A stretch of DNA of 64,000 nucleotides from Leucothrix mucor DSM 2157 (lineage in GTDB: Bacteria > Pseudomonadota > Gammaproteobacteria > Thiotrichales > Thiotrichaceae), in NCBI RefSeq assembly GCF_000419525.1, contig NZ_ATTE01000001.1, positions 2,526,655 through 2,590,654 on the forward strand, given 5' to 3'. Position 1 is the first letter of the stretch. Each line of letters starts with the position of its first letter. Of this stretch, positions 22,806 through 50,712 are shown piece by piece. Made by a program: the position numbers and the translations under genes. The notes beneath the pieces were generated by a model. It worked only from the letters and a program-made list of their open reading frames with translations. It did no database searches and had not been told where the DNA came from.

Positions 22806-22944
22806 TAGATAATCCTCTATGGGTTAAGCCTCCACAAATCCCATCAAACAACTGTAAAAACAGCACCCTGTATGATGTGTCGATTCATGTGAGTATTAGG
22901 GGCTAAAATTGCCCAAAAAATAAATTTGCGTTGAACGCGCGCGC

Positions 22945-24310: not shown

Positions 24311-24415
24311 TTTATTGTCTTACATTGGCTACAGTAGGGTTCAATCTGTTGTAAAATAAACACACCACTACTCCGCAAATGCTTGACTCATTCTGGCGAA
24401 TCCTATAAGTTCGGT

Positions 24416-24515
24416 CTAAGCGTAGACGCAAATCAATGTCTACTTAGCCCGCACCTGCTTAGGGGTGCTCCGCGATGCCATCATACCAAATCATAATTCG
24501 GGGGTTACGGCATCG
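24416..24515 (+). ncRNA. Candidate structured leader or small RNA of three hairpins
   Basis: Three local inverted repeats lie in series in the 265-nt gap. The first pairs CTAAG and TAGAC (24416-24427) with GTCTA and CTTAG (24438-24447). The second pairs GCACC (24451-24455) with GGTGC (24464-24468). The third pairs CGATGCC (24473-24479) with GGCATCG (24509-24515). None is followed by a T-run. They precede the DEAD-box-derived gene by about 60 nt and could be its 5' leader, or a separate RNA. I do not recognise an Rfam family. Confidence 0.35.
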
Positions 24516-24575: not shown

Positions 24576-26291
24576 GTGCCCCAACGCACTTCGCTAGGTT
24601 TTAATTTGTCATTTTCTAACTTAAATTTACAAGACAGCTTTGTTGCTTCTATTGAAGCTGCAGGTTATCAGTCGCCTACAGATCTCCAAACTAAGTTAAT
24701 TCCGTTAGTCGGAGAAAGGAAATCTGTATTGGTCTGGAGTCAATCAGCGGCAGGTAAAACTGGCGCATTTCTGATTCCCGCCGTTAATTATATTCTGGCT
24801 AATCCGCTGGAGGAAAAACGGGGTGCGCGCATTCTGATTTTGACTTCGCGACGTGATCGCGTCAGTCAAATTAACTACACCCTCAAACGACTGACCCGCG
24901 ATCATAATATGCGCTTTGGGTTTATTGTTAGCGGCCGCCCTTATCAACCACAGATGCGACTTATGCGCAGACCGTTGGATATGATGGTTGCCACCCCCGG
25001 TCGCTTAGGTGATTTGGTTGATAATAATAAAGCGGACTTCTCTCAACTGGAAATGCTGATCATTGACGATATGACCACCATTTATCAGAAGAATATGCAC
25101 CCGCTAATCAGCAAAATTATGGAACAGACGAAACGTGACTGCCCGGTCGTTGCCTTTGTGCGCTACGACGAGGAAGTTAATCATCTGGCCAGAGAGTTAC
25201 TGCCAGATGCCGTTGAGATCGAAGGTTTGGAAGGTGAAGACGAAGAGCTACCGGTAAATACCGATGACGCACTCGTTATCAATGTCCCCACACCAAAATC
25301 AACAGAAGCGCCTAAAAAGACATTCCCAGAACACCCGCAACATGTTTACGTTGCCGATGACTACACGCATAAGATCGCGTTAATGGATCATTTTCTGGAT
25401 GAGCTGGAGGGAGAGCCAACCGTTATTTATGTCTCTACCACTAAAGCGGCCTCTGTACTTCAAGATAACTTGGCCAACCTCGGACACGTCGCAGAACTGG
25501 CACATGATCTTAAGCCGAACGAAATCTCCAGCACTGATACGCCAACCCTCATTGTTTCAGATCAAAAGCCACTAGACCTGCCAGCGGGACAAGATCAACA
25601 CATTATTCATTTTGATCTGCCGTTTAAGCTAGACAACTATCGCAAGCGAATCGATAAGCACGATCAGAGCCGCGAAGACGCCATGATTATTCTGGCGGAC
25701 GGTAATGATTACGACTCATTACAGCGCATAGAAAAGGCAATCGGCTCATCAATTGAGCAGCACACTGCACCGGGCTTAGAACCTCTCAATCCATTTGTTA
25801 GCACTCAACCCGCCGCCTCAAGAAACAACAGCAACACCCGCAAGTCTAATCCCAGAACCAATACCAGTACGAATAAGCGCGCGCCAAGAGCACGCACCAG
25901 TACCGCGAATGCAAATGCAAGTACGGGAAAGAAGCCAGCTGCACCAAGAAAGAATACTCGTAAGCCTGCAGCAAAAACCGCTGGAGCGACCAATACGACT
26001 AACAATAAAACCAATACCCGCTCCCGTAGCACTGGCACCGATGACAAAGAAAACCGTCGTCAGCGCAAAGGTCCTTATGGACGCTTAAATGGCGGCGCTC
26101 AACGTAAGCGTAATGATGTTGGCGTAAGCAGTGTAGGTACGCAAGCACCTGCCGTTAGCCCCATGTCTAATAAAGAATGGGATAATGCAGTAACCAGCAA
26201 AAATAAGCCCGAGAAAGAAAAACGTGTGGTTATCCGCTATAAGGATAAGAAGCGCACCTTGGTTAAAGAAGACCCGGGCTCGGACGCTTAA
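24576..26291 (+). CDS. Degenerate DEAD-box-type protein with basic low-complexity tail
   Basis: This 571-residue protein has the layout of a DEAD-box RNA helicase: a Q-motif region (YQSPTDLQ, Q38), motif I SAAGKT (57-62), and motif Ib TPGR (140-143). However, motif II reads DDMT (164-167) instead of DEAD. The SAT of motif III is replaced by VAF, and motifs V and VI have lost the RGxD and HRxGR patterns. It is probably unable to couple ATP hydrolysis to unwinding. Residues after about 410 are a basic Asn/Thr/Arg/Lys/Ala-rich tail, likely RNA-binding. The GTG start at 24576 has AGGGA upstream; an in-frame TTG at 24606 is an alternative. The TPR gene follows 30 nt later. Confidence 0.72.
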   Translation: MPQRTSLGFNLSFSNLNLQDSFVASIEAAGYQSPTDLQTKLIPLVGERKSVLVWSQSAAGKTGAFLIPAVNYILANPLEEKRGARILILTSRRDRVSQINYTLKRLTRDHNMRFGFIVSGRPYQPQMRLMRRPLDMMVATPGRLGDLVDNNKADFSQLEMLIIDDMTTIYQKNMHPLISKIMEQTKRDCPVVAFVRYDEEVNHLARELLPDAVEIEGLEGEDEELPVNTDDALVINVPTPKSTEAPKKTFPEHPQHVYVADDYTHKIALMDHFLDELEGEPTVIYVSTTKAASVLQDNLANLGHVAELAHDLKPNEISSTDTPTLIVSDQKPLDLPAGQDQHIIHFDLPFKLDNYRKRIDKHDQSREDAMIILADGNDYDSLQRIEKAIGSSIEQHTAPGLEPLNPFVSTQPAASRNNSNTRKSNPRTNTSTNKRAPRARTSTANANASTGKKPAAPRKNTRKPAAKTAGATNTTNNKTNTRSRSTGTDDKENRRQRKGPYGRLNGGAQRKRNDVGVSSVGTQAPAVSPMSNKEWDNAVTSKNKPEKEKRVVIRYKDKKRTLVKEDPGSDA

Positions 26292-26321: not shown

Positions 26322-27830
26322 ATGCAGAGGGAATCATTAGCAGCGCAACGCGGACAAGGATGGCTGGTCAGTTTTGCTGCTTTAATCGTACTAAGCGCGA
26401 TTGGTGTCGTTGCTTACACCATTATCACCACACCTAAGCCAGAAGCAACTATCGTAGAGCCCACTGCTCCGGCGGTTGCACCCGCTCTGAGCAATCAAGA
26501 TTTACTGCAAATATCCCAGCAGCTTTCACTTAAATATCTCAGCAAAAAAAGCACTTCTGCCGAAGAAGATCGCCAAGCACTCAATAACACCCTGAACAAC
26601 CTCAGCCGTAGTGACTCAGCCACCGACCGACTTGCATTACAGCAATTAAAAGCGGGTGAACTGGATGAGGCAATCACTACCCTGAAAGCTCAGGCACTGG
26701 ATACCAAAGCACCTCGCGAAGCAGCCAAACACTGGCTCGACATTGGTAATTTACAGAATTTGAATTCAGGCGATGATGCATTGAGCGCTTATCAAAAGTC
26801 TGTAACATTGGACCCGGATAATATCAATGCATGGAATCGTATCGGACACCTTGAACGTCAACGCAAACAATATGATCGGGCAGAAATTGCTTACCGTAAT
26901 GTCACGCGCCTAGGAAACAACCAAAGCCAGACTCAAGCATTGGCATTGGCTAATTTTGGTTTGCTGTATCAAACTCAAAACAAAACTGAGCAAGCCATTG
27001 ATGCCTTCGCACAAGCTCTGAAAATCAATACGACGCTAAACAACAATGCTGGCATTGCTTCCAACAGCGAAAATCTTGCCAGCTTATATCGCCAGCTAAA
27101 CCAGTGGGAAAATGCCGAACAGCATTACCGCCGAGCGCTGGAGATTTATAAAGCAGATAAGCATGTCGCCAAAAGCATTGAGCTCCATGCCGCGCTAGGC
27201 AGCTTGTATCAAGCTAACCAGCAATCGGAACTGGCCCTCAGCGAGTACCAACAAGCACTAGCACTGAACGTTGAAAATCCTGATAAACGCTTTAATGCCA
27301 GCCTGTATAGCAGCATGGGAATTCTGGCACAGCAAAGTAATGAGCTAGACAAAGCAGAAGAGTATTTTAATCAGGCGTTGGCGCTGTACGAAGAAATGAA
27401 TAATCTGCGCGGAACAGCTGATCAGTTAAGTAATTTGGCCACAGTGAGCCGAAGTCGCAGGCAGTATGAAGCCAGCGAAGCACTACACCTAAAAGCAATC
27501 GCGCTGTATGAACAAGGAAAGTATCCGCAAGCCATCACTACTCAGCACACTAATCTAGGCTTTCTTTACACCGCATGGAAGAAGAACGATCTCGCCTGCA
27601 AATATTGGCGCAAGAGTGTTGAAGGCCTCACAGGAGAACGTAATAGCGCTCGTAGGGCACGGATTGAAGCAATCATTGAGCGTGACTGCCAAACTGAGGT
27701 AACAGTCCAACCTGAGACCGACGAGACTCCTGTCGCTGAAGCACTCACAACTCCAGAGCCTTCTACTACAGACACTGAGCCACCCGTTCCGGAAGCTGAG
27801 GCAGTACCAGAAAGCTCGACAACACCCTAG
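26322..27830 (+). CDS. Membrane-anchored tetratricopeptide-repeat protein
   Basis: This 502-residue protein has one membrane segment near residues 14-36 and then, after a Pro/Ala linker, at least seven TPR-like units (about residues 130-440). Examples of the repeat core are ALSAYQKSVTLDPDN, AEIAYRNVTRL and AEEYFNQALALYEE. The C-terminal 50 residues are acidic and rich in Pro, Thr and Glu. It is likely an inner-membrane scaffold facing the periplasm; partners are unknown. The gene is 30 nt after the DEAD-derived gene and is probably co-transcribed. A bidirectional terminator follows. Confidence 0.75.
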   Translation: MQRESLAAQRGQGWLVSFAALIVLSAIGVVAYTIITTPKPEATIVEPTAPAVAPALSNQDLLQISQQLSLKYLSKKSTSAEEDRQALNNTLNNLSRSDSATDRLALQQLKAGELDEAITTLKAQALDTKAPREAAKHWLDIGNLQNLNSGDDALSAYQKSVTLDPDNINAWNRIGHLERQRKQYDRAEIAYRNVTRLGNNQSQTQALALANFGLLYQTQNKTEQAIDAFAQALKINTTLNNNAGIASNSENLASLYRQLNQWENAEQHYRRALEIYKADKHVAKSIELHAALGSLYQANQQSELALSEYQQALALNVENPDKRFNASLYSSMGILAQQSNELDKAEEYFNQALALYEEMNNLRGTADQLSNLATVSRSRRQYEASEALHLKAIALYEQGKYPQAITTQHTNLGFLYTAWKKNDLACKYWRKSVEGLTGERNSARRARIEAIIERDCQTEVTVQPETDETPVAEALTTPEPSTTDTEPPVPEAEAVPESSTTP

Positions 27831-27901: not shown

Positions 27902-29476
27902 TTAAACTGCAGAACCTGCTTTAGTCGCTTTTGGTGCTTCAAGCTCTTTATCAATCTCATTCAAGTCTTCTGACTGGGCAGCACCGACGCTGTACAACTT
28001 CAGAATACTATCTTGGCTACTCAGAGCCTTCTTACGATCGATTACCACCTGATAGCCAAACTCATCTTCAAGCTTGATAAAGTCATCCTTACTGCCTTTG
28101 ATTAGCTTGTAGAACGATTTGAAGTCCTCAAAGGTATGCCCGTTCAACTTTTCAATCAGCAAGAACGATACATCATGAAAGCCTTTATTACTGTTAGCCG
28201 GTAAAACGCGTGTCAGAATAACCGCTTCTTTACGAGTTTCTGTGGGCCAGAAATTTTTCAGCGTCATAATGCGCTCATCAAAATTCACACGACGACGGCT
28301 TGCCGTAATCAAGTCATCCGTTAATGGCATAAATATGAAACCACCAACAATAAAGTAGCTTGGCTTTTCTTCAAACTTTGGTGCGGATACCAGATCAAAT
28401 GCATCTTCGGTACGAGAGAGCTTCACCACTACATCCATTGGCTTAGCATCACGAATAATACTCAGCTTCACTTCGTCACCCAGCTGGTGCATATCAACAT
28501 AATGCTCGTAAGCAATGGTTTCTTTGTAACGGAACGCAACCATGCCGTTATTAGCAATCTTATGACCATCAATAGTGGTGATGATGTCATCCTTCATCAG
28601 AATACCTTCAGCCGGTGCGCTTGGGTAAACCATTGAAACCAATACTCCACTCTGATCATCCGTTACACCGTACTTACTGCGCAGTGCCGGACTTTCAATC
28701 TCTTGATGCAAAATTCCCAGTGTTGGGAAGCCATCATAACGCTTGTCTTCCAAATCCGTCAGGAAGTGCTTAACAACCGCCGTAGGAATGATGTAGCCGA
28801 CATTTTCTGATGAGTTCATCGACTGCATAACAACACCGACGACTTTGTCACCAGACATCACAGGACCACCACTATTGCCCGGATTAATCGCAGCATCCAC
28901 TTGTACGGAAATCAGGCTGCGGCTCTTGTGTACATAGACTGAACGCTCGATACGGGACACGACACCACGAGTAACACTCAAACTATCACCACCGACCGGA
29001 TAACCGTAAGCCGTTACTTCCTGCTGAGCCTGTGGCAAATCACCAAAGCCCAATGCCTTAGTATCAAAGAAACCCGGTACCGGATCTTTTAGCGTTACGA
29101 TCGCCAAATCAGAGTCGTGAGAAATATTGGAGACAACCGCCTCATAGCGATTCGTTTCACCGTGCTTTCTCACTTCGATAAAGGTCGCATTAGAAACGAC
29201 ATGCGCATTGGTCAGAATCTGGTTACCACCGATAATAAATCCGGACCCCGTTGAACGGTCGATATAAGAATTCCAAGGCTTTAGTGTATCCACCAAATGA
29301 GACACAACAAACAGCTTAACCACCGCTTCTTTGGCGTCACCCAGCACCATTAGCTTTTTTTGTTCGGCAGCTTCCGTCTCAGCATCTGCCATTGCAGCGC
29401 TCGCCATAAATGACATCACAAAGCCTGTCATCAGCGCTATTAATAAGTTTTTCTTATAGTTAACAAGTTTGAACAT
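27902..29476 (-). CDS. Exported Deg/HtrA-type serine protease with extended C-terminus
   Basis: This 524-residue protein has a signal peptide (hydrophobic residues about 10-28, AMA-D cleavage). The trypsin-like domain has a complete triad: His92 in TNAHVV, Asp123 in HDSDLAIV and Ser202 in GNSGGP. A PDZ domain follows (about 250-355). After that comes a region of about 130 residues that resembles the second half of the Deg9/Deg10-type proteases of plants, more than E. coli DegP. It would act in the periplasm on misfolded proteins. The gene stands alone, convergent with the TPR gene. Confidence 0.85.
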   Translation of the reverse strand: MFKLVNYKKNLLIALMTGFVMSFMASAAMADAETEAAEQKKLMVLGDAKEAVVKLFVVSHLVDTLKPWNSYIDRSTGSGFIIGGNQILTNAHVVSNATFIEVRKHGETNRYEAVVSNISHDSDLAIVTLKDPVPGFFDTKALGFGDLPQAQQEVTAYGYPVGGDSLSVTRGVVSRIERSVYVHKSRSLISVQVDAAINPGNSGGPVMSGDKVVGVVMQSMNSSENVGYIIPTAVVKHFLTDLEDKRYDGFPTLGILHQEIESPALRSKYGVTDDQSGVLVSMVYPSAPAEGILMKDDIITTIDGHKIANNGMVAFRYKETIAYEHYVDMHQLGDEVKLSIIRDAKPMDVVVKLSRTEDAFDLVSAPKFEEKPSYFIVGGFIFMPLTDDLITASRRRVNFDERIMTLKNFWPTETRKEAVILTRVLPANSNKGFHDVSFLLIEKLNGHTFEDFKSFYKLIKGSKDDFIKLEDEFGYQVVIDRKKALSSQDSILKLYSVGAAQSEDLNEIDKELEAPKATKAGSAV

Positions 29477-45177: not shown

Positions 45178-45491
45178 CTAAGAAAGTGGCTTAAACAAGA
45201 TTGGATTCGTCTGCACAAGGGTACCAAAAGTATTGAAAATCACCTTTGATTTTTCGCCAAGATATAATCCTTCGATCAGTAACTCTATAGAACTTGTGCC
45301 GAGTTTCAGTTCTGTACCTGAAGTTTGGCCAAGCTAAACATAACAGCGATTATGCGAACCACCGCTGATCTGGTCTTGGGGTTGTAGGCGGCTTAGTTTT
45401 AGCCGCTGTCCGACATCTAGCTAGCGCTTACCCTAGTTAATAAAGCAACCCCTGCAATCAAGCCGGTCAATACAATGGATAGGTATTTCAT
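45178..45491 (-). pseudogene. Broken small secreted-protein gene coupled to hsdR
   Basis: An ATG at 45491 overlaps the hsdR stop as ATGA. It opens a 24-codon frame (MKYLSIVLTGLIAGVALLTR then VSAS, stop at 45417) that looks like a signal peptide. Immediately after, a different frame runs from 45417 to a stop at 45178 (80 codons), with one internal TAG in the middle. It reads as plausible protein, for example LKLGTSSIELLIEGLYLGEK. Together they suggest one exported protein of about 100 residues broken by a frameshift and a nonsense codon. The product is unrecognised. A real 24-residue membrane peptide is the alternative. Confidence 0.4.
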
Positions 45492-48400
45492 CTCGCTTGT
45501 CCTCCAGCCGTCAACAATTCAAGAATGAGCCTTGAGAACGCTTGGCTCCGCTCTGGATTCGATAACAGCTGCATCATCTGATTCTGGTGGGCAGAACTGC
45601 TATCCAAGATGGCATCATCAATCGCTTGGGCAAAGTCACCCAGCATTGCTTGCTCTGCCGTATTATGTTTAAGCTGGTTCATCACCTTCACGTTCTCTCT
45701 CATCTTGTCTCGGATCGTGTAAGCATAATTCACCATATCTTTCTCGCTCAGCCCATCCGTCACAAAGATCTCATTCAGCTTCTCAATAATCTGAGATAGG
45801 AACTCCGCTTTCTTATCCTTCGGCTTGGCAGCACCCAAGCTATCGCCCGGTATAATCTTGTAGTCTTCAGCATCCTCTTTGAGCTTAATGTGTTGTTGGC
45901 GTATTGCAGACAGCCGGTAATGACTCAGCACCACATTACTCAAATCAACGTCATCATCCTCAACGACCGTCTCCCGCAGCATGGGCCGCAAGTTACGCGC
46001 ATACAGGCTGAGCTTTTCCAGATCCTTATCGTCGTAGTCCACAATCTGAGACATAAACTCATAGAAGCGCACAAAGCTACCCAAGTCCTTTTTGAATATC
46101 TCCAGCTCGTCCTTAGCCTTCTTGCAATCCTTCAGGCTGTTCTCAGCATTAGCGGTCACCACGGGGTCATTGAATTTCTCAACGCGATCAAACATATCCT
46201 TAGCTTCTTTATAAGCCTCAATCGCCTGCTTATAACGCTTCTGCCAACGCTCCACCGCAGGTTTACAGATATTGGCAATCGCGGCATTGCTTTTGCTTTT
46301 AACAAAGAACGCCTCACAAAACTGCTCAACTTCATGCCAATAAAAAATCTTGGCACTGCGCAACTTCTGTGACAGATCAAATATCAAGTCAGGGTCAGAC
46401 ACATCGGCTAATTCAGCGGTTTGGTAATACGGCTGGAACGCTTCCAGTATGTCATCCGGCTCATTAAAGAAGTCCAACACAAACGTGCCGCTCTCCGCTT
46501 TACCAGGGAACGTACGGTTTAAGCGCGACAAGGTTTGCACACACTCCACACCGCCCAGCTTTTTATCCACGTACATGGCGCACAGCTTGGGTTGGTCAAA
46601 GCCGGTTTGAAATTTATTGGCGACGATCATCACTTGGTAATCATCACTATCAAAGGCTTTGCGCATATCACGCCCTTTGAGATTAGGATTCATGCCATGC
46701 TCTGTAAACTTCTCACCCAGTAAGGCCGCCGCGTTCGGGTCTTGCTCGTTAAATTCCACCTCACCAGAAAAGGCCACCATGGCAGTGATCTTGTCATAGC
46801 CTTTTTCGGTAATGTATTTGTCAAAGCCTAACTTATAGCGCACGGCTTCTTTACGCGAACTGGTGACCACCATCGCTTTGGCTTGCCCACCCAGCAGGCC
46901 CATGATGTTGTCTTTGAAGTGCTCAATAATGACCTGCACCTTCTGACTGATGTTGTAGTCATGCAGGCGCACCCACTGATTCAGCTTTACCTTGGCCTTT
47001 TTACTTTCGACTTCCGCATCACTTCCGGCAATCTTCATCGCCAGGTTATAAGCGACTTTGTAATTGGTGTAATTCTTCAGAACATCGAGAATAAAGCCTT
47101 CCTCAATCGCTTGGCGCATACTGTATACATGGTAGGCCTCAGGCTTATTGGTCTTGGACGGTGGTTCATCTGGCTTGGGTAGACGGCCAAACAATTGCAG
47201 CGTTTTATCTTTCGGGGTTGCGGTAAAGGCCAAGTAACTGAGGTTCTTCGAGGCACGACGCGAGGCCACCGCCGCATCTAAAATATCCTCCGTCGTTAGC
47301 GCCTCATCATCCGCTTTGCTGTCAACCATCAGCACTTCTTTTAATTGCCGCGCAGTACTGCCAGTTTGTGAGCTATGCGCCTCATCGGCAATCACCACAT
47401 AGTTACGTTCTTTCAGGCTGACACTGTTCTCAATGGCTTTTAACACAAACGGGAAGGTTTGAATGGTGACAATAATGATCGGTTGCGAGTGCTCCAACGC
47501 TGAGGCCAATTGCTCTGACTTGGAGCCTTCACCCTCTTTACGGTTAATGCGCCCCACCACGCCATCAACTGAAGTGTATTGTGAAATAGTCTCCTGTAAC
47601 TGGTCATCCAGTACCGTTCTGTCAGTCACCACAATCACCGACGCAAACACCTTACTGCCATCCGCGTTATGGAGTGCCGATAACTGATGCGCAGACCAGG
47701 CAATGGAGTTGGACTTACCCGACCCGGCACTGTGTTGTATTAAATACTTTTGACCAGGGCCTTCGGTTTTAGCCGCCTCAATCAGCTTACGCACCACATC
47801 CCACTGGTGATAGCGCGGGAAAATTAGCGTCTCTTTTTTGGTTTTACGGCCTTCCCAGTCTTCCTTTTCCTTAATTTCAAGGTGCATAAACCGCGCAAGG
47901 ATATTTAACAGGTTGTCCGGCAGTAACACCTCATTCCATAAATATCCCGTTGCGTATTGCTGCTTATCTTCTGGGACTTCATTACCCGCGCCACCGTCTT
48001 TGGTGCCTTTATTGAACGGCAAAAAGAACGTGTCATCACCTTCTAAGCGCGTCGCCATAAAAACCTGATCTTGGCTCACCGCAAAATGCACCAAGGCACC
48101 GCGTTTAAAGGTTAATAAGGGCTCAGGCTTTTTGGTCACCGGGTCAATAGCAAAGCGCGTGGTTTTATATTGCTTAACCGCATTACTCACGGGCTGCTTA
48201 AACTCAGACTTCAACTCCAGCGTGGCCACCGGTAAGCCATTCACAAACAATACCAGATCAATGCGCCACTGCTTGGCCCGAATGCCGGTCTCGGCTTCAT
48301 GCGCATCGGTTGCCCACGGGCTATACACCAGCTCTGGCACCAGTCGCAGACGGTTCTTGTTGTAACGCGCTAAGGTATCGGGATTTAGATCATGCTCTGG

Positions 48401-48760
48401 CTTGAATTGGCATAAGCTGAAACGGGTGCCACGGTCGCGCAGCTCATTACGCAGTACACCCAAGGTGCCAAAGGTTCGGATCTCTCGATTGGCCGCATTA
48501 GGGTCGGCTTTATTGAGCTGTGAGGCAACGCGCTCCAGGAACTTCTGCTCTGGATTATTGGGGTACAGCGTGCAGAATTTTTGCCATTGCTCGTCTTGGG
48601 TATCTTTAACGAACCCGAGCACATCTTCGGAATATAAGGCCAACTCACGATTGTAGTGTTTGGGATTGCCGAGTAACCAGCCGTTTGCCAGCATTTGACG
48701 GATCATGTCATTTTGAAAAATGTATTCCGTCGACTTATCCCCGCCGTAAAACACGCTCAT
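45488..48760 (-). CDS. hsdR: Type I restriction enzyme R subunit
   Basis: HsdR (1090 aa) is the motor and nuclease of a type I restriction-modification complex. The N-terminal PD-(D/E)xK nuclease has Asp in RIDLVLFVNGLP and Glu-x-Lys in ATLELKSEF (about residues 168-188). The SF2 helicase follows: Walker A HSAGSGKSNSIAW near 343, DEAH box IADEAHSSQT near 460, and TATP near 515. The C-terminal helical domain contacts HsdM. The gene is separated from hsdS by an inserted cassette. An ATG at its stop suggests a coupled downstream gene. Confidence 0.95.
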   Translation of the reverse strand: MSVFYGGDKSTEYIFQNDMIRQMLANGWLLGNPKHYNRELALYSEDVLGFVKDTQDEQWQKFCTLYPNNPEQKFLERVASQLNKADPNAANREIRTFGTLGVLRNELRDRGTRFSLCQFKPEHDLNPDTLARYNKNRLRLVPELVYSPWATDAHEAETGIRAKQWRIDLVLFVNGLPVATLELKSEFKQPVSNAVKQYKTTRFAIDPVTKKPEPLLTFKRGALVHFAVSQDQVFMATRLEGDDTFFLPFNKGTKDGGAGNEVPEDKQQYATGYLWNEVLLPDNLLNILARFMHLEIKEKEDWEGRKTKKETLIFPRYHQWDVVRKLIEAAKTEGPGQKYLIQHSAGSGKSNSIAWSAHQLSALHNADGSKVFASVIVVTDRTVLDDQLQETISQYTSVDGVVGRINRKEGEGSKSEQLASALEHSQPIIIVTIQTFPFVLKAIENSVSLKERNYVVIADEAHSSQTGSTARQLKEVLMVDSKADDEALTTEDILDAAVASRRASKNLSYLAFTATPKDKTLQLFGRLPKPDEPPSKTNKPEAYHVYSMRQAIEEGFILDVLKNYTNYKVAYNLAMKIAGSDAEVESKKAKVKLNQWVRLHDYNISQKVQVIIEHFKDNIMGLLGGQAKAMVVTSSRKEAVRYKLGFDKYITEKGYDKITAMVAFSGEVEFNEQDPNAAALLGEKFTEHGMNPNLKGRDMRKAFDSDDYQVMIVANKFQTGFDQPKLCAMYVDKKLGGVECVQTLSRLNRTFPGKAESGTFVLDFFNEPDDILEAFQPYYQTAELADVSDPDLIFDLSQKLRSAKIFYWHEVEQFCEAFFVKSKSNAAIANICKPAVERWQKRYKQAIEAYKEAKDMFDRVEKFNDPVVTANAENSLKDCKKAKDELEIFKKDLGSFVRFYEFMSQIVDYDDKDLEKLSLYARNLRPMLRETVVEDDDVDLSNVVLSHYRLSAIRQQHIKLKEDAEDYKIIPGDSLGAAKPKDKKAEFLSQIIEKLNEIFVTDGLSEKDMVNYAYTIRDKMRENVKVMNQLKHNTAEQAMLGDFAQAIDDAILDSSSAHQNQMMQLLSNPERSQAFSRLILELLTAGGQAR

Positions 48761-49158: not shown

Positions 49159-50712
49159 CTAAGCCTTCTCCACCTCAACACTCACCACATTGCGTGTCTT
49201 CTTACTAAACTCCACACCGATTAAATAGATCGGCCGATCTGGTGCTCTAAACTTATCCGCGTAAGCCTTATCCTTAATTTGCTGAAGTGCTTCACCCTTC
49301 GCTTCATCATCGACCACTTTGAATTCAAAAATATAGATTTGCTGATTAAATTTCAGCGTCATATCAATTCGGCCTAAATTGGTGGCGTCTTCCACCGTGA
49401 CATCCAACCCAAGTGAAGCAAAGTAAGAGTAAAACACCGAGGCGTAATAGCCTTCGTACTCCTGAATATGGTTTTTGGTATACCACTGGTGTGGAATACT
49501 CGCGTAAAAACGGTGAAAGAGCTTTTCCAAGCCTTCAAAATCATTAGCCAGTAAATACTGATGAAGCTGCGCCGTGTTCATCGCTTGCGCCGATTTGTCT
49601 GATACCAGCGCCGATAACAGCACATCATTTAGGCTTTGATAGACCTCTAAATTAGGATAACCGAGCGTGTAAAAATCCTGATTACCAATACGTTCTTGCT
49701 TCTTAATGGTTAAATAACCGGTTTGAAACAACAAGGCTTCGGTGTCGATTTGACCAACTTCAAAACTGGATAACATGGCACTGCTGCTAAACAGGCTATC
49801 TAAGTTTAGTGTTACCACCTGCCGCTTAAACAACATGTCGACCAAAAACGTGGGGGTCGCGCTTTCAAACCAATAACTTCTAAACTCACGATAATCAAAC
49901 AACTGTAAGATATCGAAAGGGTTATAAACACCTTCTCCCCGCCAGTTATAGCCGTTATACCATTGACGGATTTTATCTCGATCTAAACCAAACAGCTCAG
50001 GTGCAAACACAGAGTCGATATCGAGATCTGTGTAGCCGCAAATAGTCGAATGGCGAGGGTCAAGCGTTATGTCCTTAAGGTTATTCAGCCCAGAAAACAA
50101 ACTCACGCGAGAAAACTTACTAACACCGGATAAAAAGCTAAATTTAATATCAGCGTCACTGTCTTTAATGGTGGAATAGAAGCCTCTCAGGTAATCACGA
50201 TTAGTTCTGGCGACGTCTGTGTTGTCTAACGTATCCAAAATTGGCTTGTCGTACTCATCAATCAGGACAACCACTTTTTGTTGATGCTCCCGCCGGATAT
50301 GTGACAACAGACTAGCTAATCGCTCAGGCGCTGTATCGTACGGTGAATGGTGATCAAACTGCTGATCCAGTTGATCCAATTGCGCCATGACATTTTTATG
50401 CAAATACTCAACCGCGCCAAAATGCCCTTTGCCAAAGCTAAACCGTATCACCGGGTATTTGACCGACCAGTCCCACTGCTTCTCAGCTGCTAACCCTTTA
50501 AACAGTGGCTCATTACCTTCAAACAACTCTTTTAAAGTATCAATAAACAGACTTTTACCGAAACGACGAGGCCGTGATAGAAAATAGTGCTTACCTTCTT
50601 CTATCAGCTGTAATGCTTGGTCAGTTTTATCGACGTAGTAGTGATTCTCCTGACGTATTTCACTAAAGGTCTGGATGCCAATGGGTAGTCTTTTGCGGGC
50701 AGTTTGACTCAT
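49159..50712 (-). CDS. AAA-ATPase-like/DUF1703 protein with PD-(D/E)xK domain
   Basis: This 517-residue protein has the AAA-ATPase_like layout (PF09820): PIGIQTFSEIRQENHYYVDKT at residues 11-31, a P-loop variant RPRRFGKSL near 47-55, and VVLIDEYDKPILD near 150. The C-terminal part is the PDDEXK_9 (DUF1703) nuclease-like fold, with Asp in RIDMTLKF and Glu-x-Lys in YIFEFKVVD near residues 455-475. These proteins are frequent in mobile and defence regions, but no activity is established. It is the last gene of the cassette between hsdS and hsdR. Confidence 0.85.
   Translation of the reverse strand: MSQTARKRLPIGIQTFSEIRQENHYYVDKTDQALQLIEEGKHYFLSRPRRFGKSLFIDTLKELFEGNEPLFKGLAAEKQWDWSVKYPVIRFSFGKGHFGAVEYLHKNVMAQLDQLDQQFDHHSPYDTAPERLASLLSHIRREHQQKVVVLIDEYDKPILDTLDNTDVARTNRDYLRGFYSTIKDSDADIKFSFLSGVSKFSRVSLFSGLNNLKDITLDPRHSTICGYTDLDIDSVFAPELFGLDRDKIRQWYNGYNWRGEGVYNPFDILQLFDYREFRSYWFESATPTFLVDMLFKRQVVTLNLDSLFSSSAMLSSFEVGQIDTEALLFQTGYLTIKKQERIGNQDFYTLGYPNLEVYQSLNDVLLSALVSDKSAQAMNTAQLHQYLLANDFEGLEKLFHRFYASIPHQWYTKNHIQEYEGYYASVFYSYFASLGLDVTVEDATNLGRIDMTLKFNQQIYIFEFKVVDDEAKGEALQQIKDKAYADKFRAPDRPIYLIGVEFSKKTRNVVSVEVEKA

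Follow-up and report, generated by a model that had tools for sequence, protein, structure and literature searches.

An order-wide bacterial DEAD-box pseudohelicase is real and occurs across the Thiotrichales; pseudohelicases as such were already known. Its representative in Leucothrix mucor DSM 2157 was found in a stretch of 64,000 nucleotides (contig NZ_ATTE01000001.1), hereafter designated as the window, and its frame sits in a genome of 5.19 Mb. The protein combines a helicase fold, here that of a predicted model, with the loss of the catalytic motifs and with a gene that has been maintained, and its status as a pseudo-DEAD-box protein under selection is regarded as close to certain. Going by the DEAD domain only, annotation would label this gene as coding for an RNA helicase, very likely in error. 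Pseudohelicases are hardly described, the titled cases being one eukaryotic protein and one DNA helicase, and a DEAD-box pseudohelicase found through a whole bacterial order is in effect an experiment of nature, one that can tell what such a protein still needs without ATP-driven unwinding.

Reading frame, predicted fold and helicase motifs

The coding sequence, its domains and the sites of its motifs are as follows.

24606..26291, + strand: pseudohelicase CDS, TTG start, 561 aa, stop TAA
24606..25223, + strand: RecA1-like domain, residues 1-206 (Pfam DEAD over residues 25-181; predicted model)
24738..24764, + strand: altered motif I, SQSAAGKTG (motif table; 61-62 order rows)
24846..24863, + strand: altered motif Ia, SRRDRV for PTRELA (SR[RK][DE]RV in 62/62 rows; PTRELA in 30/30 canonical rows)
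25065..25076, + strand: degenerate motif II, DDMT for DEAD
25152..25163, + strand: site of the lost motif III (SAT), reading AFVR (motif alignment)
25332..25799, + strand: RecA2-like domain, residues 243-398, with QxxR deleted and motifs V and VI lost (separate model, pLDDT 90.0)
25557..25565, + strand: motif V remnant, SDQ for TDV, its Asp being the sole invariant residue of the motif in 33 rows (motif alignment)
25647..25649, + strand: motif VI remnant, the Arg of HR (motif table)

An earlier note had described a frame of 571 codons from 24576, which would open with GTG. Its strand and its end at 26291 were borne out, but the start was not: translation almost certainly begins at the TTG at 24606, because this codon fills the start column in all 61 order genomes that reach it, as it does in 36 of 36 deduplicated orthologues. 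By comparison, four to six different codons are used in each of the 17 other columns where Leu fills 32 or 33 of 33 rows, and the starts of six adjoining genes are ATG (32/32 matched). Of seven canonical paralogues, three have their ATG aligned with this TTG. In 33 SrmB-like sequences from beyond the order, the start, picked by pattern, is TTG (13), GTG (8) or ATG (12), two of the original 35 having no start codon at the expected place. As TTG and GTG starts are this common among outside SrmB-like sequences, the non-ATG habit probably predates the catalytic loss and became fixed in the order.

Two RecA-like domains, both with intact folds, are predicted by the models. The Pfam DEAD profile (PF00270) matches RecA1 only, at an E-value of about 1.9e-22 and 80.3 bits (gathering score 26), and matches all 30 members of the orthologue alignment at E 0.01 or better. 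The RecA1 model, with pLDDT of 78-91 in blocks of ten to residue 200, superimposes on 1vec_A in VIA with Z 27.2 and rmsd 1.9 over 202 residues. For the RecA2 model, the best VIA match is the RecA2 domain of Escherichia coli SrmB (2yjt_D; Z 19.0, rmsd 2.4, 155 residues aligned), about 2 Z ahead of the next; by Foldseek E-value SrmB RecA2 comes second, just behind or level with Hera (3eaq_B). Helicase_C (PF00271) stays below its cut-off (15.5 against 23.5 bits) with a match that falls in RecA1, but it matches 7 of the 30 orthologues at E<=0.01 (best 6.2e-6), which runs counter to a complete loss. The PADLOC model SngC also matches (28.3 bits, E 1.8e-7), and this is taken as general helicase likeness.

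Motifs were compared between 33 orthologues and 30 canonical relatives from outside the order, a set that excludes five outside sequences (L033-L036 and L038). With few exceptions, the canonical rows read AQTGTGKT, PTRELA, TPGRL, DEAD, SAT, QxxR, TDVAARGLD and HRIGRTGR. The orthologues mostly read [ST]Q[ST]A[AS]GKT, SR[RK][DE]RV, TPGRL and DD[LMF][TSA], and the QxxR stretch (motif IVa/QxxR) is deleted in them; SAT is missing, and motifs V and VI have shrunk to one invariant Asp and one invariant Arg, respectively. The Q motif, GYxxPTxLQ, is retained as in an active DEAD-box protein (33/33 rows); motifs I (AxTGxGKT), II, III, V and VI all depart from the active form. The earlier reading of motif II as DDMT, of a vanished SAT and of a motif VI stripped of its arginine pattern was thus accurate, both Arg of GRxxR being gone. 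Its statement that motif I is kept holds for GKT but not for the rest, AQTGTGKT having become SQSAAGKT with the invariant Gly replaced by Ala in 61 of 61 rows. The ATP pocket therefore retains its Lys, its Thr and the first Asp, and has lost the catalytic Glu, SAT and both GRxxR arginines. At 46 positions the orthologues are at least 90% conserved for a residue that occurs in at most two of the 30 canonical rows, 53 positions are conserved alike in both sets, and the canonical set has 146 such columns.

The same picture emerged from an order-wide reading covering 61 genomes and 62 rows, since in one genome the gene is divided between two contigs. GKT is present in 62/62 rows, TPGR in 61/61 readable rows, and Asp154 and Asp155 in 60/60, where motif II follows the pattern DD-[LMFY]-[TSA]; DEAD, ARG[LI]D and HRxGRxxR are absent from all 62. 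The two RecA domains in a predicted DEAD-box fold, together with the weak Helicase_C matches in 7/30 orthologues, would suit an active helicase with unusual motifs, but with five motifs non-canonical in the readable orthologues this reading is very improbable.

Elsewhere in the same genome, a divergent DEAD-box paralogue (L007; G000:C1:1639343-1642873) has a motif II that reads DEVD, and TAT where SAT would be expected; its motifs V and VI are intact, and both helicase domains are matched by Pfam.

Conservation through the order and probable descent from SrmB-like helicases

Using a profile of 30 orthologues, the gene was detected in 61 of 63 order genomes, including all 46 with a completeness of 90% or more and a contamination of 5% or less; the two genomes without a match are drafts estimated to be 89% and 80% complete. 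Best scores in the order range from 629 to 779 bits, apart from two genomes in which the gene is fragmentary (290 and 175). The best match beyond the order reached 288 bits among 366 genomes and 264 bits among 397 partly overlapping ones, with at most four and three candidates scored per genome, respectively. The named records with the gene belong mostly to Leucothrix, Cocleimonas, Thiothrix, Thiofilum and Thiotrichaceae, and three of the 25 gene-bearing records have broader or odd labels (Proteobacteria, Aquificaceae, Gammaproteobacteria).

The gene is under strong purifying selection. The dN/dS ratio was 0.012-0.061 for RecA1 in eight of ten pairs, the other two being saturated and several of the eight having dS >2, 0.015-0.097 for RecA2 (6/10 pairs) and 0.08-0.48 for the tail (10/10 pairs). 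Since the same altered state recurs across the order with so low a ratio in RecA1, the motif losses exceed what chance would leave. A decaying gene could be proposed from the motif losses alone; with no internal stop in any listed orthologue match and RecA1 dN/dS of 0.01-0.06, decay has next to no probability and is ruled out by the purifying selection and the order-wide conservation. Shared losses in orthologues had been set beforehand as support for the pseudo-helicase reading and orthologues with intact motifs as its refutation. The losses were found in every readable order orthologue and intact-motif orthologues in none, the intact copies being either outside relatives or other paralogues; the reading is supported because the losses are conserved in this way.

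As read, the nearest relatives outside the order are SrmB-like helicases, which share with the pseudohelicase the two-RecA architecture and a basic tail (NF008394, NF053636). This clade is also the closest in the trees, provides the closest RecA2 by VIA and includes non-ATG starts; it differs in that the motifs, lost in the order's protein, are intact there in 30/30 rows. The best NCBIfam model is SrmB itself (NF008394), at 165.2 bits against a curated cut-off of 507, which leaves the protein outside that equivalog. In trees that exclude rows shorter than 450 aa and retain L059, a sequence with ambiguous bases, the orthologues form one fully supported clade beside or within the canonical SrmB-like clade. 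Its stem is long, with 2.04 changes per column for the core, 2.66 for the core with four orthologues and 2.94 for RecA1 only, and for this reason the precise ancestor is uncertain; the core trees do not show E. coli SrmB as the closest neighbour, and the RecA1-only tree places SrmB differently. AU tests on RecA1 rejected one clade with RhlE, DeaD or RhlB (p 0.004, 0.004 and 0.006) and did not reject one with E. coli SrmB (p 0.27). Together, trees and AU tests point with moderate confidence to a place beside SrmB-like helicases rather than beside RhlE, DeaD or RhlB, and an SrmB-like origin is considered likely. No synteny shared with the canonical relatives was seen over the short flanks available.

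Intact relatives within the order were sought with a profile of the canonical clade. The best order score, 502 bits, is about that of E. coli RhlE (498), and scores do not settle the question because a row of the canonical clade itself (L034) reaches only 483. Twenty of the order's best matches were fetched and 24 were placed in a tree: the RhlE side took in 23 of them, the remaining one, L166, grouped with E. coli SrmB, and none of the 24 entered the canonical clade adjoining the degenerate family. The view that the order has no intact SrmB-group helicase was overturned by L166 (426 bits, where the SrmB cut-off is 507) and its relatives. Such genes (L166, L170-L180; 79-100% alike) occur in 11 of the 63 genomes, all in one genus (11 of its 16 genomes) whose named records are Thiothrix; at E 1e-95 none was found in the other 52. 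In that genus the helicase may have been either kept or regained by acquisition. In most order genomes the degenerate protein is the only SrmB-like one found, and the tree puts none of the seven best canonical paralogues of DEAD-box type in L. mucor into the SrmB-like clade. That 11 genomes have an intact SrmB-type helicase as well argues against the pseudohelicase being a simple SrmB substitute and favours a role of its own.

The basic tail and possible roles

Three features describe the region beyond RecA2.

25800..26288, + strand: basic, predicted-disordered tail (pLDDT <50, residues 398-561; K+R 24%)
26064..26111, + strand: tail motif RKGPYGRLNGGAQRKR (Lys488, Gly489 and Arg493 invariant in the 30-row orthologue alignment)
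26226..26255, + strand: C-terminal motif VVIRYKDKKR (orthologue alignment)

The long basic tail reported earlier is present, with 165 residues and a net charge of +27. The strict pattern of RKGPYGRLNGGAQRKR occurs in 22 of 32 complete orthologues and a looser core in 31. These two short conserved motifs in an otherwise variable, disordered tail might suggest a protein that acts mainly as a protein-protein adaptor, its dead core and tail docking on another helicase, RNase E or the ribosome and steering it, with RNA binding being secondary. Motif Ia, which contacts RNA in canonical helicases, has moreover been rewritten to the invariant SR[RK][DE]RV. Against such an adaptor, the tail is strongly basic like RNA-binding tails and no shared docking motif was seen, the last 85 residues having no other match in the rest of the genome at E 10; the adaptor is accordingly rated as rather improbable.

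The interpretation preferred here, held somewhat more firmly than an even bet, is that of a former SrmB-like DEAD-box RNA helicase that now serves as a passive RNA chaperone or scaffold under selection. The catalytic cycle would have been lost, apparently once, in the ancestor of the order, and the protein kept under strong selection. Judging from the motif losses, it would neither hydrolyse ATP nor clamp or unwind RNA. Via RecA1 and the basic tail it would most likely bind structured RNA, and the target might be rRNA or the leader of an mRNA; the putative RecA1 contacts are the retained TPGR and the arginines that are invariant in motif Ia and GRPYQPQMRL. By its SrmB-like descent and by analogy with Utp25, its part in the assembly of RNPs or ribosomes might be that of a passive chaperone or scaffold; for the proposed scaffold role on RNA or the ribosome, the chances are put at about even.

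Since GKT and the first Asp of motif II are invariant, nucleotide may still be bound, perhaps as a structural or switch ligand, and an invariant P-loop Lys and Thr with this Asp would fit a protein still using nucleotide. On this basis a nucleotide-gated RNA binder can be envisaged, in which the Q motif, GKT and Asp154 hold a nucleotide that is hydrolysed very slowly or not at all, as a two-state switch of RNA binding. The counts for these residues, Asp155 and TPGR given above speak for it, insofar as useless residues would seldom stay invariant over such divergence. Yet the motif I Gly is Ala in 61/61 rows, Asp stands where the catalytic Glu should be and the nucleotide partners on RecA2 (motifs V and VI) are lost, so that closure on ATP would have no known basis, and the retained residues may serve folding. 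Such a gate appears unlikely, if less so than the adaptor.

In E. coli, SrmB acts in large-subunit assembly and needs its own ATPase (PMC6736130). Its DEAD>AAAD mutant shows the same cold sensitivity at 16 C as the deletion, and ATPase-defective SrmB gives a lesser suppression of premature termination in the rplM leader (PMC6736130). A dead SrmB thus cannot do SrmB's job in E. coli, and therefore the role in the order must have shifted; the failure of ATPase-dead SrmB in the cold (PMC6736130) makes the task of its dead relative a direct and testable question. We suggest tentatively, as a possibility well short of even, that in most order genomes an ATP-driven SrmB-class helicase gave way to a dead, possibly nucleotide-binding and indispensable or nearly indispensable relative whose dose is set by the invariant TTG, and that a passive RNA chaperone carries out a step for which E. 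coli needs ATP.

A parallel is offered by the pseudohelicase Utp25/Def, a eukaryotic protein of the SSU processome (PMC9539457). Utp25 has a predicted DEAD-box fold without a working motif set, is maintained (it is essential in yeast), bears a disordered extension and takes part in ribosome assembly. It differs in being eukaryotic, in the N-terminal position of its extension and in having kept motif Ia and no DEAD sequence (PMC9539457). The order's protein has motif Ia rewritten and retains a DD remnant and GKT; no Utp25 family model was among its Pfam matches up to E 1, and the two are inferred to be of independent origin. A bacterial protein called a pseudohelicase in the title is PriA of Deinococcus radiodurans (PMC4504706). 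PriA is a DNA replication-restart protein and a helicase of another kind. Literature searches returned no bacterial DEAD-box pseudohelicase in the titles among the matches listed, and nothing on Thiothrix together with DEAD-box.

Leader region and neighbouring genes

Three features flank the coding sequence.

24383..24409, + strand: promoter-like pair TTGACT-15 nt-TATAAG (picked by eye in a 7-row leader alignment)
24473..24515, + strand: leader hairpin CGATGCC...GGCATCG, 7 pairs (7 Leucothrix-type rows)
26322..27830, + strand: TPR neighbour protein (Pfam TPR; synteny)

The promoter-like pair was not listed by a consensus promoter scan with spacings of 16-18 nt. In the hairpin, two pairs show a two-sided change in one of the 7 rows and one pair is broken in one row; it matched no Rfam family. 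The putative promoter and hairpin of the Leucothrix leader, the latter backed within Leucothrix alone, are suggestive only. A Shine-Dalgarno switch of ancient origin was considered and rejected, as the folding of the 50 nt before the start was little better than that of shuffled sequences in 36 orthologues (mean z -0.52); the corresponding mean in the 33 outside sequences was -1.11. The 5' end of the CDS shows mild constraint at silent sites (Fisher p 0.001, 0.026 and 0.096 in three groups). Some outside SrmB-like helicases (L091-L093, among L075-L103) have a strong hairpin immediately ahead of the start region, with z of -3.6 to -4.3, and a regulated leader may be common in the SrmB-like helicase group.

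The TPR gene lies co-directionally 30 nt downstream, as first noted, but it is conserved on the Leucothrix/Cocleimonas side only. In a synteny sample of 17 of the 25 named loci plus the window locus, it adjoins the pseudohelicase gene in 10/10 Leucothrix/Cocleimonas-type loci against 0/8 of the Thiothrix/Thiofilum type, and its product is therefore not a general partner. The pseudohelicase gene follows either map or radA; radA is upstream in seven of the eight Thiothrix/Thiofilum-type loci, the eighth being cut there.

Several other elements were identified in the window. A t44 RNA (Rfam RF00127) lies directly upstream of rpsB (22823-22911, - strand), and a protease of the Do/HtrA-like type that carries a PDZ_3 domain at its C-terminus (27902-29476, - strand) scores far under the curated cut-offs for the Deg models. 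Further along, a 1090-aa protein (45488-48760, - strand) with HSDR_N, SWI2_SNF2 and T1R_D3-like domains resembles the R subunit of type I restriction systems (PADLOC REase_I, 2.4e-38). The adjoining gene (49159-50712, - strand) encodes a predicted AAA-ATPase with a PD-(D/E)XK nuclease domain (PF09820, PF08011), and a 2001-bp stretch of the R-like gene has a second, 99% identical copy about 243 kb away.
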